Shown one piece after another: positions 2,299-8,075 of a stretch of DNA of 64,000 bases. The notes beneath the pieces were generated by a model, which was not told where the DNA came from, did no database searches, and worked only from the letters and a program-made list of their open reading frames with translations. The DNA comes from Fibrobacter sp. (lineage in GTDB: Bacteria > Fibrobacterota > Fibrobacteria > Fibrobacterales > Fibrobacteraceae), in contig JAKSIJ010000003.1 in NCBI GenBank assembly GCA_024398875.1, positions 1 through 64,000 on the forward strand, written 5' to 3'. The first letter of the stretch is position 1, and the number at the start of each line of letters is the position of its first letter. Made by a program: the position numbers and the translations under genes.

Positions 2299-2562
2299 AT
2301 GGAAATTGATGACTGGCGAAACCGCATAGACGCAATGAATGACGAAATTATCGCTCTTTTGAACAAGAGGGCTGTTTGTGCGGCTGAAATTGGCAAACTG
2401 AAGAAAGAGTTGGGTTTGCCGGTTTTGGATGCCAGTCGCGAAAATGAGGTCCTGGAAGCTGTGGGGGAGAAGGCCGTAAAAGCTGGTGGTCCCCTGACTG
2501 CAGAATCCGTCAAGAAGATTTTCCAGGCCATCATGGAAGAGACTCGCAAGGTGGAGGACTAG
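2299..2562 (+). CDS. Chorismate mutase, AroQ type
   Basis: An 87-residue all-helical protein beginning MEIDDWRNRIDAMNDEIIALL, the standard AroQ helix 1 (R8, D11). The later motif EIGKLKKELGLPVLDASRE carries the conserved K and the R/E pair that bind chorismate. It converts chorismate to prephenate for Phe and Tyr. Its TAG stop directly abuts the ATG of the prephenate dehydrogenase gene, so the two are translationally coupled; in many bacteria these activities are fused. No clear Shine-Dalgarno precedes the ATG. Confidence 0.9.
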   Translation: MEIDDWRNRIDAMNDEIIALLNKRAVCAAEIGKLKKELGLPVLDASRENEVLEAVGEKAVKAGGPLTAESVKKIFQAIMEETRKVED

Positions 2563-3729
2563 ATGAAGCGCATCACATTGGTGGGCTTTGGCCTCCTTGC
2601 CAGTTCCATTGCCGCTGCCGTCAAACAGGCTAAATTGCCTGCGGTCATTCGTGCAGTGAGTTCCGCGACGACTCTTGCGCGGGCTCGCGAACTTGGCCTG
2701 GCTGATGAATTTTTTGAGTACGAAGCCGCTGAGGAATGGTCCAAAGACAGCGACCTGATTCTCCTTTGCGGCCCCATCCTTCACATTTTGAAGTGCATTG
2801 ACGCCCTAAGCAAGATTACACCGCAAAATCCGTGCTTGGTGAGCGACATCGGCAGCACCAAGGTGGAGATTTGCAAGGCCGGTGCAAAATTGTCGGCCCC
2901 CTTCCGCTTTGTAGGGAGCCACCCCATGGCGGGTTCTGAAAAACGGGGTTGCGAACATCACGACCCGGCTATTTTTGAAAATGCCTACTGGTTCATTTGT
3001 CCGCCGGAAGGAACCGAGGAATCTGTTTATTCGCCGCTTCTTGATTTGGTAAAGTTTGTCGGGGCGAACGCGGTGGTGTTCCCTCCGGAGCATCACGACA
3101 GGACGATGGCCTGGGTGAGCCACATGCCTCAGATGCTCAGTTCCACCTTGGCGGCGAACATTCCCGAACGCTTGCTCAGTCACAACTACCAGCATTACGC
3201 GGGCCGGGCATTTAGAGATATGACACGCATTGCCGCCAGTGGCTGGGGGATGTGGCACGACATTTCCGTCACCAATCGGGATGAGATGGTGCGGGCCCTT
3301 ACCGAAGTCCGCGATGGCGTAGACAAGACCATTGAAGCCATGAAAAAACTCAATGTGGTGGAAAACGGAATGCCTGCTGGCGGTATTTTTGGTAACCCTG
3401 GCGCAGGGTCAACAGAGGCTGATAACAGTGCCGCGCTTGCGGACATTTTCAAGGCCGGTAATGATGGCCGTGCAAGCCTTTTTGCTCCAGGACGCAATGC
3501 CTCTGCCGCATTTTTTGAAGTGACGGTAATGCTGAAGGATGAGCCTGGCGCACTTTTGGCGGTAATGGAACCATTGGCGAAGGCCGGCATCAATATTCGG
3601 GATATTGAACTGATGAAGGTTCGGGAGAACATTGCGGGCACATTGCTTCTTGCCTTCAAGACGCAGACCGCGGCAGCTCGCGCAATTCAGATTCTCAGAG
3701 ATCTCGGGCTCGAGGCAAAGGAACGGTAG
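2563..3729 (+). CDS. tyrA: Prephenate dehydrogenase with C-terminal ACT domain
   Basis: A 388-residue TyrA. The N-terminus has a Rossmann fold with VGFGLLASSIAAAVK as the dinucleotide loop. The catalytic histidine is in GSHPMAGSEKRG. The all-helical dimerisation domain contains HMPQMLSSTLA. Residues from about 315 form an ACT domain (FEVTVMLKDEPGALLAVMEPL), the usual tyrosine-sensing feedback module. It oxidatively decarboxylates prephenate to 4-hydroxyphenylpyruvate. The stop codon abuts the next gene's ATG. Confidence 0.93.
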   Translation: MKRITLVGFGLLASSIAAAVKQAKLPAVIRAVSSATTLARARELGLADEFFEYEAAEEWSKDSDLILLCGPILHILKCIDALSKITPQNPCLVSDIGSTKVEICKAGAKLSAPFRFVGSHPMAGSEKRGCEHHDPAIFENAYWFICPPEGTEESVYSPLLDLVKFVGANAVVFPPEHHDRTMAWVSHMPQMLSSTLAANIPERLLSHNYQHYAGRAFRDMTRIAASGWGMWHDISVTNRDEMVRALTEVRDGVDKTIEAMKKLNVVENGMPAGGIFGNPGAGSTEADNSAALADIFKAGNDGRASLFAPGRNASAAFFEVTVMLKDEPGALLAVMEPLAKAGINIRDIELMKVRENIAGTLLLAFKTQTAAARAIQILRDLGLEAKER

Positions 3730-5136
3730 ATGGAATTTCTTTTGAATCCAGATCGGGAACGCATGAACCTCACACTCGTGATGGCATTGCTTGTCAATGG
3801 CCGTACGGTTCTGGAGGATTTTTCATGGCCAAGTGGTGCGGAGCGTTTTGCTAATGCCCTCAAGGAATTCGGATTGGAATATGCAACTCAGGGCCATCAG
3901 TTGGTGCTGACGGGGAAGGGCTTCCAGTATAGCCTGCCTTCGGTTCTGCCCTGTGATTTTGGGGAGCTGGAAAATGTGCTTCTCTGGACGCTAGCCAGCA
4001 AGGATTCCGAGCAGCTTTATACTTTTATTGCGCCAGAAACCGCGGGCGATGTTACTTCGGGCGATGTTACTTCGGGTGCGGACTCCGCTTCGCCGTTGGA
4101 ATCCGCCAAGCAGCTTTTGCAGAAGTACTTCAAGATAAAGCCGCAAATCGATGAACCGGGAAAGTTCGTCTTCAGTTTCGAGCCTGCAGAGCCCAGTATC
4201 AGGAAGGATACCTCGGGCAGCATCCCGTACATCATGCGAAACCGCCTCCTCATTCGGGCCCTTGTTCGGAGCGAATACCTCACCTTTGAAGAGAAATCTC
4301 CGGTTCGGGATCAGCTCACGAGAATGTTCCAGTTCTTTGGCGTGGCGCTCAAGTACGAGGGCCGCGGCATGGAGCAGTTGAGCGAGTTCGAACGCCGCCT
4401 CATGATGGCGCAGGGCAAAAAAATTGAGCGCACGCAGACCACGGAACTTTCCGAGACCCGCGTGCTTACCGCCCACGACTACTTTGTTCCCGGAGATACC
4501 TCCGAGGCTGTGTCGATTGTCGTTTTGACGGCAGTGGGGAATGTCCCGAAGGAAAATGCGGTCAAGATTCTCAATGTGGATTTGAACACCAGCCGCTCGG
4601 GAGCGATTTCTTGCCTCAAGCGCATGGGTGTGAATGTGGACAACGCCACTCGTCGCGAAAAGTTTGGCGACGTGTTTGGCGATTTGGATGTGTTCCCCAT
4701 GGCCGCAGGCAAACGCTTGCAGGGGCGCCGTTTTGGCGAAGACGCTGTGGCATCTAGTCTCAGCGAGTATGCGCTTCTGGCTGTTGCCGCCTGCTTTGCA
4801 GAGGGTGAAACTATCCTCCGCCTGCCCAAGGAAAACCGCACTGCAATGCGGCCCATGAATGAATTTCTGGCAGAAAACCTCCGGAAGACGGGCGTGGAAG
4901 TGGGCGTCTACGAAGATGGCATGGTCATCCGTGGTATGGAAACTATCCTCAAGGGGAGTGACTTTAGCGCAGGCGAATGGCCGGAAGTCGGCCTTGCATT
5001 GACGGTTCTCTCGCTTGCCCTTCAAAATGACGAACCTATCAAAGGTGCGGATTTGGTGGAAGCGACTTATCCGGGAATTCTCGCAAAGCTCGAGCAGGTG
5101 CTAGTTTCGGAGAAAACAGAGGAGGTTGAATCGTGA
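3730..5136 (+). CDS. Highly divergent EPSP synthase (AroA)-like protein
   Basis: The second half matches EPSP synthase motif by motif: KSPVRDQLTRMFQFFGV, VPGDTSEAVSIVVLTAV, LNTSRSGAISCLKRMGV, LLAVAACFAEGETILRL and NLRKTGVEV. The residues that bind shikimate-3-phosphate and PEP look lost. The N-terminal KSxSxR signature is replaced by NPDRERMNLT, no NAGTxxR motif is seen, and the catalytic aspartate of the DEFPLLAVAA motif aligns with S in LSEYALLAVAA. Length (468) is normal to slightly long. Position after chorismate mutase and TyrA points to aromatic biosynthesis, but a working EPSP synthase cannot be assumed; it may be a regulatory or structural paralogue. It overlaps nadK by four bases. 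Confidence 0.7.
   Translation: MEFLLNPDRERMNLTLVMALLVNGRTVLEDFSWPSGAERFANALKEFGLEYATQGHQLVLTGKGFQYSLPSVLPCDFGELENVLLWTLASKDSEQLYTFIAPETAGDVTSGDVTSGADSASPLESAKQLLQKYFKIKPQIDEPGKFVFSFEPAEPSIRKDTSGSIPYIMRNRLLIRALVRSEYLTFEEKSPVRDQLTRMFQFFGVALKYEGRGMEQLSEFERRLMMAQGKKIERTQTTELSETRVLTAHDYFVPGDTSEAVSIVVLTAVGNVPKENAVKILNVDLNTSRSGAISCLKRMGVNVDNATRREKFGDVFGDLDVFPMAAGKRLQGRRFGEDAVASSLSEYALLAVAACFAEGETILRLPKENRTAMRPMNEFLAENLRKTGVEVGVYEDGMVIRGMETILKGSDFSAGEWPEVGLALTVLSLALQNDEPIKGADLVEATYPGILAKLEQVLVSEKTEEVES
4046..4075 (+). repeat. 15-bp tandem duplication inside the aroA-like gene
   Basis: Two exact copies of GCGATGTTACTTCGG (4046-4060 and 4061-4075) encode GDVTSGDVTSG in a low-complexity loop between domains. 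The duplication keeps the frame. Confidence 0.9.
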
Positions 5137-6041
5137 TTTCCTTGAAGATTAATCCTCAGGCCTCCATGTTCAAGAAGATTGGAATTGTTGGTTTCAAAGA
5201 CAAAAGCGCCGACTTGGCTTGCGCCTTGAATCAGATTTCCGTGTGGGCCTTGATTCACAAGGACGTGACCTTCTGCGCTCTTGAATCCCTCCGCGGGCTT
5301 GCCAACAAACCCATCCGCGTTGTCAAGGAATCTGCACTCCGCAAGTGCGATTTGCTTCTGGCCATTGGTGGCGATGGTACTGTTTTGACTGCGGCTCACA
5401 TTGCCCTCGGCTATGGCATCCCTATTCTCGGCGTGAACGCGGGCCGTGTGGGATTTCTGGCGGAAACCCGCGTGGAAGATCTCAAGCGCACCTTGGACGA
5501 CCTTGCCGCAGGCGATTTCTCCACCCGCGAGCGCATGATGATTGATGCTAGTGTCATGCGGGGCAAAAAGTGCATCTCCAAGCAGACGGTTTTGAATGAA
5601 GTACATGTCCGCGCTCATGCTCCTGAACGCATGGTGAACGTGAATGTGGAATATAACGGCACTGCCCTCACGGAATATTGGGCGGATTCCCTTCTGGTTT
5701 CTACGCCGACAGGTTCTACCGCCTATAATCTGGCGGCGGGCGGTCCTATTATCCATCCGGCGACGCCCGCAGTGGTGCTCACGCCTGTGGCTCCCAGTAG
5801 CCTCTCCATGCGCCCGCTGGTGCTTTCTCTTTCGCCCAAGACCCTGAAGATTTCTTCTACGGTGGAACGCCCCGTGGACATCGTTTTTGATGGCCGCATT
5901 ACCACGGTTTTGAATCCCGGCGAGTCCGTTGTCCTCACCGAAAGCAAGGCGGTGACTACATTCATCCGCATGCGCCATACAGGATTTGTCGGTGCCCTCA
6001 AAGAGAAGTTGGGTTGGACGGGCAAGCCCCGTTTGGCCTAA
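5133..6041 (+). CDS. nadK: NAD kinase
   Basis: Phosphorylates NAD to NADP. Motifs: LLAIGGDGTVLTAAHIA (GGDGT), VNAGRVGFLAE, NEVHVRAH, and DSLLVSTPTGSTAYNLAAGG; all catalytic positions are present. I chose the GTG at 5133 because a strong GGAGG lies seven bases upstream and the start overlaps the aroA-like stop as GTGA, typical of coupled genes. An internal ATG at 5166 is an alternative that would remove 11 residues. It is the last gene of the aromatic operon; NADP supply does not obviously belong to that pathway. Confidence 0.93.
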   Translation: MISLKINPQASMFKKIGIVGFKDKSADLACALNQISVWALIHKDVTFCALESLRGLANKPIRVVKESALRKCDLLLAIGGDGTVLTAAHIALGYGIPILGVNAGRVGFLAETRVEDLKRTLDDLAAGDFSTRERMMIDASVMRGKKCISKQTVLNEVHVRAHAPERMVNVNVEYNGTALTEYWADSLLVSTPTGSTAYNLAAGGPIIHPATPAVVLTPVAPSSLSMRPLVLSLSPKTLKISSTVERPVDIVFDGRITTVLNPGESVVLTESKAVTTFIRMRHTGFVGALKEKLGWTGKPRLA

Positions 6042-6055
6042 TCATTTATAAAATT

Positions 6056-6137
6056 TGCGTCATTATATCAGAAATTTTAAGGTAATTTCGGCTTTGCGTC
6101 ATTTTTTATCAAATAATGCCGCAATTTATGCGTCATT
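6056..6137 (+). promoter_or_regulatory. Triple TGCGTCATT repeat upstream of fic
   Basis: Three exact copies of TGCGTCATT at 6056-6064, 6095-6103 and 6129-6137 (steps of 39 and 34 bases) fill the gap before fic. A TATATT hexamer follows just after the third copy, near 6143. Repeated sites over a promoter suggest an operator; Fic proteins with a C-terminal winged helix can be autoregulatory, so self-binding is a reasonable guess. Confidence 0.5.
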
Positions 6138-6166
6138 ATTGCTATATTTACGCTATCGAGGCGATT

Positions 6167-7258
6167 ATGTATATTCACGAGAAACCGAATTGGACGCAAT
6201 TTTACTGGAATGCGGCGGAGGTGGACCCTCTAGTGAGCAAGGTGTGCCATGCTCAGGGTGTGCTGTATGGTCGTCTTTTGGGCCTTGGTTTTGATAACCG
6301 CATCAAGAATCTGGCGGATAACTTGACCAAGGATGTGGTTCGCTCGTCGGAGATTGAGGGAATTGAACTCAATATGGATGAGGTCCGCTCTTCGGTGGCG
6401 AATCGGCTTGGCATCGAGAACGACACGAACATCGCCCCGTCCCATAGGATAGAGGCGGTGGTGGAGGTGATGGTCTCTGCCATGGAGCATTACGACCAGT
6501 TGCTGACCGACGAGAAATTGTGGGGCTGGCAGTCGGCGTTCTTTCAGGATGGTCATAGCCGCGGTTCCCGCCTAGAGGTGGGGAGGTACAGAACTTGCGA
6601 GGAGCAGGTGGTTTCTGGAATGTTCGGTAGGGAGCGCGTGCATTACGAGGCGCCCAAGCCCGAGCGGGTACCCTTTGAGATGCGCCGCTTTTTGGAGTGG
6701 TTCAACGGCTACGATAACAAGCCCTGGGTTATCCGTTCTGCAATAGCCCACTTCTGGTTTGTCTGCATTCACCCCTTTGAGGATGGCAACGGACGTTTGG
6801 CTCGAATTCTTGCGGATATGCAGCTTGCTCGGGGCGAGGAGCTGCGGATGCGTTTTTACAATGTGTCGGGCCAAATCAACAAGGACCGCAAAAACTACTA
6901 CCGCATTCTGGAGGAGACTCAGAATGGTACGGGAGATATTACAAGGTGGCTGGTTTGGTTCATGCACACGCTCCTGTTTTCTTTGCAGGAGGCGGAGGAG
7001 TGCCTGGACCGGGTTCTTGTGAAGACGAACTTCTGGAATCATTTTGCGGAGGTGCCGCTGTCCGCCCGTCAGAAGAAAATCCTCAACCTGTACCTCAATG
7101 GTTATGAGGGAAAGATTTCTTCAAAGAATTGGGCTCACTTGGGGAAGTGTTCCTCGGATACGGCAAACCGCGACTTGCTGGACCTTTGCGAGAAGGGACT
7201 CATCACCTGCGATGACATGCTGGCCAAGCGCCGCACATATCATCTGGTGCAGGTTTAG
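6167..7258 (+). CDS. Fic family AMP-transferase, class II, DUF4172 N-terminus
   Basis: The start at 6167 is set by GAGG five bases upstream and by the N-terminus MYIHEKPNWTQFYWN, typical of DUF4172 Fic proteins; a longer frame from 6116 lacks support. The catalytic Fic motif is complete: HPFEDGNGRLAR. The inhibitory helix motif SSEIEG fits [S/T]xxxE[G/N] and lies before the Fic core, which makes this a class II, self-inhibited enzyme. Residues from about 300 form a winged-helix-like domain (SARQKKILNLYLNG through KRRTYHLV). It is expected to transfer AMP from ATP to a hydroxyl side chain of an unknown target. No separate antitoxin is seen. Confidence 0.9.
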   Translation: MYIHEKPNWTQFYWNAAEVDPLVSKVCHAQGVLYGRLLGLGFDNRIKNLADNLTKDVVRSSEIEGIELNMDEVRSSVANRLGIENDTNIAPSHRIEAVVEVMVSAMEHYDQLLTDEKLWGWQSAFFQDGHSRGSRLEVGRYRTCEEQVVSGMFGRERVHYEAPKPERVPFEMRRFLEWFNGYDNKPWVIRSAIAHFWFVCIHPFEDGNGRLARILADMQLARGEELRMRFYNVSGQINKDRKNYYRILEETQNGTGDITRWLVWFMHTLLFSLQEAEECLDRVLVKTNFWNHFAEVPLSARQKKILNLYLNGYEGKISSKNWAHLGKCSSDTANRDLLDLCEKGLITCDDMLAKRRTYHLVQV

Positions 7259-7275: not shown

Positions 7276-7866
7276 TTAAACCAAATCAGCGGCCCATTGT
7301 GGCAAATTTTCCACGTATTTTTTGAACATTTTCCCATCAACCATGCGGCACAGCAATCGTGGCAACTCGTTTTCTATGGAATTGTCGTAGACGTAGGCTC
7401 TGTCCACCAAAGAAAATGCCAAGGCTGCGTTGGCAAGAGATTTGTAATAGCGCGATATGATTTTAGAAATTGGAACTTCATGTCCTCCGTTAAGATATCG
7501 GTTTGTTATACGGAGAACGTTGATTGCCGGGTCGTTTGTGCAAACAAAAAACAAGCGGATGAAAAATTCGGCTTCTTTTGCCTTGCGGATAAATTCAATT
7601 TTTTCATCTGACGAAAAAACTGTTTCAAAGACGAAATTCTTTCTTTCGTCAAGACATTTGTATCGCATGTCCGTGGCAAGTTTCGCTGCTTTTAAAACTG
7701 CATCGGGCGAATTCCAGTCGCCAAAGGTTTTTTGGGCGATGTCGTCGGGATTGATGTAGACACTATCTGCCGCCCATTCATTATTTAATAACTGAATGGT
7801 TGTGGTTGTCTTACCCGATCCATTGGGGCCGGCTACAATGCAGAGGGTTGGCTTCAGTTCGGGCAT
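7276..7866 (-). CDS. Zeta-toxin-like P-loop kinase
   Basis: A 196-residue protein with a Walker A motif near the N-terminus (CIVAGPNGSGKTTTT), followed by INPDDIAQ and FETVFSSDEKIEFI, the order seen in zeta-toxin/PezT-like small kinases. Zeta toxins phosphorylate UDP-N-acetylglucosamine, but the substrate of this subgroup is not established. The ATG at 7866 overlaps the stop of the upstream small gene (TAATG) and follows GGGGA at good distance; an upstream TTG in frame is less likely. It forms a two-gene unit with that small gene, as in toxin-antitoxin pairs. Confidence 0.75.
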   Translation of the reverse strand: MPELKPTLCIVAGPNGSGKTTTTIQLLNNEWAADSVYINPDDIAQKTFGDWNSPDAVLKAAKLATDMRYKCLDERKNFVFETVFSSDEKIEFIRKAKEAEFFIRLFFVCTNDPAINVLRITNRYLNGGHEVPISKIISRYYKSLANAALAFSLVDRAYVYDNSIENELPRLLCRMVDGKMFKKYVENLPQWAADLV

Positions 7867-8075
7867 TATATTCCCCAATGCGCTTTTTTGTTAGCTATTT
7901 GAACCAAAACGTTCGCCTGCATACGTTGCTTGGCGGCCTCTGCTCTGAAGGTTGATTCCCGGGCTGCTGCACCAACACGTTCCATAAGAGCCTCCAATAA
8001 TTCATCGGAAGGTTCTTCCATGGAACTTAGCCTGTATTTTTTCAACTCTTCGTCGGCCATACTGGTAATATACAT
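7866..8075 (-). CDS. Small helical partner of the zeta-like kinase, possible antitoxin
   Basis: A 69-residue, charged, mostly helical protein (from MYITSMADEELKKY) ending HWGI. It resembles no antitoxin family that I recognise with certainty. Function is inferred only from its place: the toxin-like gene starts inside its stop codon. The start is uncertain: ATG at 8075 (GTGGA upstream) or ATG at 8060. The leader and first 14 codons resemble those of the membrane-protein gene starting at 16847. The gene starts just past a strong hairpin that ends the parC transcript. Confidence 0.6.
   Translation of the reverse strand: MYITSMADEELKKYRLSSMEEPSDELLEALMERVGAAARESTFRAEAAKQRMQANVLVQIANKKAHWGI

Follow-up and report, generated by a model that had tools for sequence, protein, structure and literature searches.

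A putative pseudo-EPSP synthase encoded in the tyrA-nadK operon of the Fibrobacterota

Pseudoenzymes are a known kind of protein. EPSP synthase is the target of glyphosate, and catalysis in its fold requires a closed two-domain cleft. Mycobacterium has DAHP synthase-chorismate mutase complexes, in which a shikimate-pathway protein controls the mutase through binding to it; the controlling partner in those complexes is itself an active enzyme, whereas the complex that we consider below for the protein of this study is a proposal.

For EPSP synthase itself, the closest described systems involve a link to tyrA. AroAs of the Bacillus-Coxiella-CP4 type (3rmt, 3roi, 2gg6) are often encoded next to tyrA, and the TyrA-AroA bifunctional proteins (NCBIfam model NF011381; P. 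aeruginosa, A. baumannii) consist of a TyrA domain followed by an AroA domain. The gene order tyrA>aroF, in which aroF encodes EPSP synthase, has been described as widespread by Song et al. 2005 (PMC1173090). According to these authors, the EPSP synthase domain (AroF) of the TyrA fusion in Pseudomonas syringae is now a remnant, a stand-alone copy, probably transferred, having taken over, and the authors suggest that the remnant domain could become a regulatory domain (PMC1173090).

The locus described here lies in the first 64,000 nucleotides of a contig of Fibrobacter sp. (JAKSIJ010000003.1, assembly GCA_024398875.1), a stretch that we call the window, and its gene of interest, directly downstream of tyrA, is termed X. 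The product of X is very probably an ancient pseudo-EPSP synthase. With the Bacillus-Coxiella-CP4 AroAs it has in common the fold over its whole length (Z 27-30), about 20-22% identity, the NxxRxG- and DExP-type positions and the proximity of tyrA; unlike them, it has lost the active-site residues, carries an Arg222-Arg223 insert, scores far below the aroA equivalog cut-off and shares its genome with a canonical AroA. The tyrA-X pair follows the TyrA-then-AroA order of the NF011381 fusions, except that the Fibrobacterota have separate, closely coupled genes and that the AroA part is predicted to be no functional EPSP synthase. As in P. syringae, a TyrA-linked EPSP synthase would have lost its function. 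However, the P. syringae remnant (PMC1173090) is a truncation inside a fusion in one species, whereas X stands as a gene apart, full-length for the most part, and has a conserved signature of its own and a phylum-wide spread. Full-text literature searches, including searches on Fibrobacter and judged in part by title, returned no description of an EPSP-synthase-derived pseudoenzyme.

A predicted EPSP-synthase fold in an aromatic operon

The operon of the window reads aroQ-tyrA-X-nadK on the + strand (Table 1). An earlier note on this DNA had placed a full-length X with an undamaged frame between tyrA and nadK, and this holds; aroQ is an addition to that note, which had named only the tyrA and nadK flanks. 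The TAG of aroQ abuts the ATG of tyrA (junction ...GACTAGATGAAG), and the TAG of tyrA in turn abuts the ATG of X (junction CGGTAGATGG). For nadK, an internal ATG at 5166 fits the starts of orthologues better than the GTG does. A scan for promoters and terminators gave results near shuffle expectation, and the Rfam scan was empty.

Table 1. Features of the X operon in the window (position 1 is the first letter of the window)
Feature	Position	Strand	Description and evidence
aroQ	2299..2562	+	chorismate mutase type II, 87 aa; opens the operon; ORF; PF01817 83.7 bits (cut-off 27)
tyrA	2563..3729	+	prephenate dehydrogenase with C-terminal ACT region, 388 aa; PDH_N, PDH_C and ACT matches
X	3730..5136	+	EPSP-synthase-fold protein without EPSP-synthase active site, 468 aa, ATG start
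Tandem repeat in X frame	4043..4076	+	15-bp perfect repeat, 2.3 copies; modelled stretch with pLDDT <50
X-specific insert	4366..4425	+	~20 residues, X residues about 213-232; motif (D/E)ELxRRxxxxxxxK
X C-terminal domain	4477..5097	+	X residues about 250-456; better conserved half
nadK	5133..6041	+	NAD kinase; GTG start overlaps X end

X matches the Pfam EPSP_synthase model (PF00275) at 64.8 bits (cut-off 22.8), with its C-terminal half only (residues 224-454). Its scores against the equivalog models fall short: 79.9 bits against the NCBIfam aroA model TIGR01356 (cut-off 287.25), 84.6 bits against the TyrA-AroA bifunctional model NF011381 (cut-off 902) and 11.5 bits against the best MurA model (cut-off 552), so that X is not MurA. 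Nor do tyrA and X form the one polypeptide of the bifunctional model, since they are separate ORFs with a TAG between them. Aligned by hhalign to a profile of four AroAs, X is matched over residues 2-463 (probability 100, E 6e-43, 20% identity).

The AF2 model of X, made from 14 related sequences, has a pLDDT of 78.3 and a pTM of 0.73. Foldseek matched it to EPSP synthases over the whole length, with 3roi as the best match (E 3e-24), and VIA aligned 394 residues with 3rmt (Z 30.3, rmsd 3.0), a comparison that took in only Foldseek's own top chains and so leaves room for folds outside that list. As modelled, X is a complete two-domain enolpyruvyl-transferase fold, in line with the earlier note, which saw the fold motifs kept. 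The C-terminal domain has a median identity of 23.5% to 12 deep X proteins, as against 12.9% for N-terminal residues 14-200, where the columns of the deep rows (~13% identity) are uncertain one by one. Among the nearest named records is an X relative from a Fibrobacter MAG (L034) with 94% identity; the X of this nearest relative has 449 aa, 19 aa fewer than the 468 aa of the window X. Within the reading frame of X, the tandem repeat adds length to a loop of the protein.

The genome has three PF00275 matches, namely, a canonical AroA (415.6 bits), MurA (339.7 bits), encoded elsewhere in the genome, and X (54.7 bits). The second, canonical aroA that the earlier note had advised looking for is thus present, at G000:C1:322709-323977, and it has all motifs (GSKSITNR, NAGTAMR, SSQ, D, KETDR and DHR) and scores 447.0 bits against TIGR01356 (cut-off 287.25) and 467.9 bits against E. 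coli 1g6s. Because this AroA is encoded elsewhere, X is not the genome's only or principal EPSP synthase. An aroA match over the cut-off occurs in 58/61 genomes of the family.

Loss of the active site and a conserved insert

We take K22, S23, R27, D313, K340, E341, R344, D384, H385 and R386 of E. coli AroA (numbering checked on 1g6s) to be catalytic or substrate residues of EPSP synthase. The active-site columns were placed by two alignments, MAFFT and hhalign, and the column of E. coli R124, which is unreliable, was excluded. In both alignments the window X has R9/E10/L14 in place of K22/S23/R27, Y167/I168 in place of S170/Q171, S345 in place of D313, A372/M373/M376 in place of K340/E341/R344 and W417/P418/E419 in place of D384/H385/R386. 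The earlier report that KSxSxR, NAGTxxR and the catalytic Asp are missing is therefore confirmed by two alignments, and SSQ, KExxR and DHR are absent as well. In a check set beforehand, no canonical active-site residues were found elsewhere in X within the MAFFT or hhalign alignments.

The same columns can be followed through 38 X proteins. The E. coli residue is kept by five of them at K22, one at S23 and none at R27 or S170, by one at K340, five at E341 and four at R344, and by four at D384 and none at H385 or R386. The D313 position is acidic (D or E) in 79/111 distinct X proteins and Ser in the window X. The replacements at active-site columns vary freely among X proteins (38-row table; 111 distinct sequences), and no cluster of conserved polar residues was found phylum-wide in the X cleft. 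The columns that are kept in nearly all X proteins are Gly/Ala/Met/Val/Pro, D256 and R223; apart from D256, which is also present in 25/25 AroAs, and R223, the near-invariant columns are structural.

R223 belongs to the X-specific insert, which lies between the X domains, after ‘RDQxxRMxxFG’ and before ‘PGDxxxA’, and which is absent from 25/25 AroAs, where columns 222 and 223 are gaps. In a census of 117 X sequences, 111 of them distinct, residue 223 is Arg in 108, a gap in 2 and His in 1 (i.e., Arg in 108/109 with a residue there), and at position 222 Arg or Lys is found in 108 of the 111. The blocks of the X model that cover residues 211-250 have a mean pLDDT of only 55-69, and such low values would fit a segment that is ordered by a partner.

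Over 42 loci, X has a median dN/dS of 0.151, as compared with 0.109 in tyrA and 0.119 in nadK (861 locus pairs, of which a dS of 0.1-1.5 retained 283, 309 and 335, respectively), so the claim that X is under selection stands, and the selection is purifying. Judged by its sequence, X bears the marks of a pseudoenzyme: an enzyme fold, loss of the catalytic residues and purifying selection.

Distribution, neighborhood and origin

X is present in 60/61 genomes of the family, and the exception, G016, is a 71%-complete genome that also lacks tyrA and nadK matches. Among 120 sampled Fibrobacterota genomes it is present in 111, spanning ten family labels (f1 64/66, f2 2/2, f3 10/10, f4 1/1, f5 1/1 and f6-f12 33/40). 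A 23-row X profile gives 211-536 bits for full-length X, 115-280 for split or cut copies and at most 93 for canonical AroAs. Of the nine X-less genomes, only five count as absence, namely, all five f6 genomes, one of which is 69% complete; G121 and G133 lack tyrA and nadK matches too, and G084 and G097 have contig ends beside tyrA or nadK. This phylum-wide spread and the signature insert are additions to the earlier note. The counts cover the Fibrobacterota, and confinement to the phylum is not claimed, since the scan beyond it reaches close relatives only. A plasmid search yielded no X, its 16 records being ordinary AroAs by annotation or similarity.

The X frame is open in every well-covered genome outside f6. 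Five family X matches were flagged with one TGA, which lies at the C-terminal end of X, given that the ORFs still run 363-444 aa. Misassembly or a frameshift was considered and rejected, since many independent genomes carry X. In genera g5 and g8 (L064-L068, L070-L077), ~100 aa of the N-terminal half of X are missing, and the insert and the C-terminal domain are kept.

The neighborhood is nearly constant. tyrA stands beside X in 71/74 family loci and nadK in 72/74; in 20 loci of other families, where X was identified by BLAST in 19 and by position and profile in L105, the figures are 19/20 and 20/20. In the f1-f4 genomes that were searched, aroQ was found in 19/19, always on the X contig and, by its coordinates, just upstream of tyrA. 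The tyrA-X junction could be scored in 58 of the 74 family loci, and in 38 of these 58 X starts at a spacing of 0, -1 or -4 from the tyrA stop, in keeping with coupled translation of TyrA and X; X is probably translated together with TyrA in most loci. Open frames of 844-861 and 498-762 aa in f2 and f3 were considered as tyrA/X/nadK fusions and rejected, the three genes being separate there.

Two families depart from this layout. In f6 (L172 = G063, L173 = G068), tyrA overlaps nadK with no X between them, which amounts to a natural empty site. In the f5 genome G061 (100% complete; L177 7201-9056), the order is chorismate mutase-X-nadK, with chorismate mutase replacing tyrA directly before X, and no tyrA over the Pfam cut-off was found in this genome, where a PDH_N match of 21.0 bits elsewhere is sub-threshold. 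Because aroQ-X-nadK occurs there with no detectable tyrA, TyrA cannot be the sole partner of X in G061.

In a maximum likelihood tree of 64 proteins, a single branch sets the 38 X proteins apart as a monophyletic group (100/100; 100% of 200 bootstrap trees); the tree does not indicate the AroA class from which X stems. L114 was excluded from the AroA set because its longest frame is the wrong one. The best solved relatives of X are AroAs of the Bacillus/Coxiella/CP4 type (78.7 bits for 3rmt, 13.0 for E. coli 1g6s), and the NCBIfam model for TyrA-AroA bifunctional proteins matches every one of the 23 sequences in the X alignment A3. The column of X R289 holds Arg in 5/25 AroAs, among them that of Listeria, which is of the tyrA-linked type, and Gln in 20/25. 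The aroA of the Bacillus/Coxiella/CP4 type follows tyrA in Natranaerobius, Thermovirga and Listeria and is fused to it in P. aeruginosa; in Sinorhizobium such an aroA is not linked to tyrA. Since the nearest AroAs are often beside or fused to tyrA, the simplest history would be that X is a resident aroA stripped of its catalytic job.

In the maximum likelihood tree, the canonical AroAs divide into two separate groups, that of f1-f4 and that of f5-f12, which shows that the active aroA was exchanged within the Fibrobacterota; the displacement of X is not dated thereby. Canonical AroAs (L108-L127) are of two types, one E. coli-like and the other with PDALPAL...RIKETDRI.

Possible roles of X

We propose a mechanism in which X is an in-place descendant of a tyrA-adjacent aroA. 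Another aroA would have taken over the pathway, and the resident copy would then have ceased to catalyze and have retained or acquired a role in protein-protein contact. X, co-translated with TyrA, might thus have no catalytic part in the chorismate-to-tyrosine branch but serve it as a scaffold or regulatory subunit, and its partner could be chorismate mutase and/or TyrA, possibly NadK. We speculate that the Arg222-Arg223 insert would make the contact with this partner. Three points suggest a protein-binding role: residues in the cleft are free to vary, and g5/g8 do without part of the N-terminal half; the new conserved element is a basic insert and not a new polar pocket; and at most loci the translation of X is probably coupled to that of TyrA.

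How firmly can this be held? The explanation as a whole, a pseudo-EPSP synthase with a partner or regulator role, has in our estimation about an even chance of being right, and the specific claim that X partners or regulates the chorismate/tyrosine branch without catalysis of its own is tentative, a little short of even. A bolder version, in which X founds a family of EPSP-synthase-derived regulatory subunits and a dead pathway enzyme controls tyrosine synthesis via the Arg222-Arg223 insert, is conceivable, and we regard it with more doubt. The earlier note had proposed an allosteric partner of chorismate mutase/TyrA; this fits the operon, but it sits poorly with the f6 loci, which have tyrA-nadK without X, and with the f5 genome, which has aroQ-X-nadK with no tyrA over the Pfam cut-off. 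Counting against any partner role is that X is dispensable at the lineage level, as f6 demonstrates. Within the genus, the distances of X correlate with those of TyrA (partial r 0.64) far more than with those of NadK (0.10), whereas over all loci the values are 0.51 for X-NadK and 0.25 for X-TyrA, so that TyrA is not singled out. A TyrA-X read-through model, run without a control, gave a pLDDT of 58.6 and a pTM of 0.34, values too low for the model to be informative.

The main rival to the partner/regulator reading is a new enzyme activity: could X have a rebuilt active site for another substrate, perhaps linked to chorismate, prephenate or NAD(P)? We think this unlikely. It is consistent with the full two-domain fold predicted for the window X, with the near-full length of X in most lineages and with its long retention under purifying selection, and its best support is the D or E at the D313 position in 79/111 X proteins. 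The window X itself, however, has Ser at that position, and the residues that replace the active site vary freely across X; the near-invariant columns are structural except for D256, shared with all 25 AroAs, and R223. The N-terminal domain, moreover, is the most divergent half, and g5/g8 do without ~100 aa of it, that is, without one wall of the cleft. Alternatively, X may act on or with NadK, or may have a role unrelated to aromatic synthesis and merely share the operon. That nadK is the more constant neighbor (20/20 deep loci), even where tyrA is missing, and that the partial distance correlation over all loci favors NadK would suit this reading, to which we give little credence: in the exceptional f5 genome aroQ stands where tyrA would be, so that an aromatic gene is still upstream of X, and f6 keeps NadK without X.

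Two further readings take X to be either more or less alive than we propose. That it is a decaying aroA relic, kept only for its place inside the operon, is very improbable. The active site is indeed lost, X is cleanly absent in f6 and its N-terminal half is shortened in g5/g8; yet the dN/dS of 0.15 is close to that of tyrA and nadK over the 42 loci, every well-covered genome outside f6 has an open frame, a conserved insert was gained and the gene persists across ten family labels. Decay to a pseudogene was rejected on dN/dS and conservation. At the other extreme, an EPSP synthase that is very unusual yet active, as a second isoenzyme alongside the canonical AroA, would account for the fold and gene neighborhood of an aroA, and we consider the chance of it to be close to nil, with the active-site residues largely lost in 38 X proteins, 79.9 bits scored where 287.25 is the cut-off, and a canonical copy in existence. 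The very unusual EPSP synthase that the earlier note had entertained was likewise given up on active-site loss and the canonical AroA: the active-site columns are scrambled, and g5/g8 have lost ~100 aa N-terminally. Because the canonical AroA is present and the residues of X are lost, production of EPSP by X is neither needed nor expected. By any mark tested beyond the fold, X is no EPSP synthase.

We thus return to X as a putative pseudo-EPSP synthase, one that is real, phylum-wide and uncharacterized; its fold is not new. The data suggest an old enzyme that was turned into a protein with a new role. If X regulates the tyrosine branch, it would be a concrete and phylum-aged case of the regulator idea put forward in 2005 for P. 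syringae (PMC1173090). Given the Pfam match, X is liable to be annotated as 3-phosphoshikimate 1-carboxyvinyltransferase, and such an annotation would lead astray both metabolic models and surveys of glyphosate sensitivity in rumen bacteria.

Some minor observations concern the surroundings of these genes. One g5 genome (G030) has two aroA matches over the cut-off, on C48 and C116, with contamination (4%) a possible source. Just downstream of the operon in the window, a DUF4172-Fic protein is encoded at 6116-7258 (+), and a Zeta_toxin-type kinase is encoded convergently to it at 7276-7878 (-).
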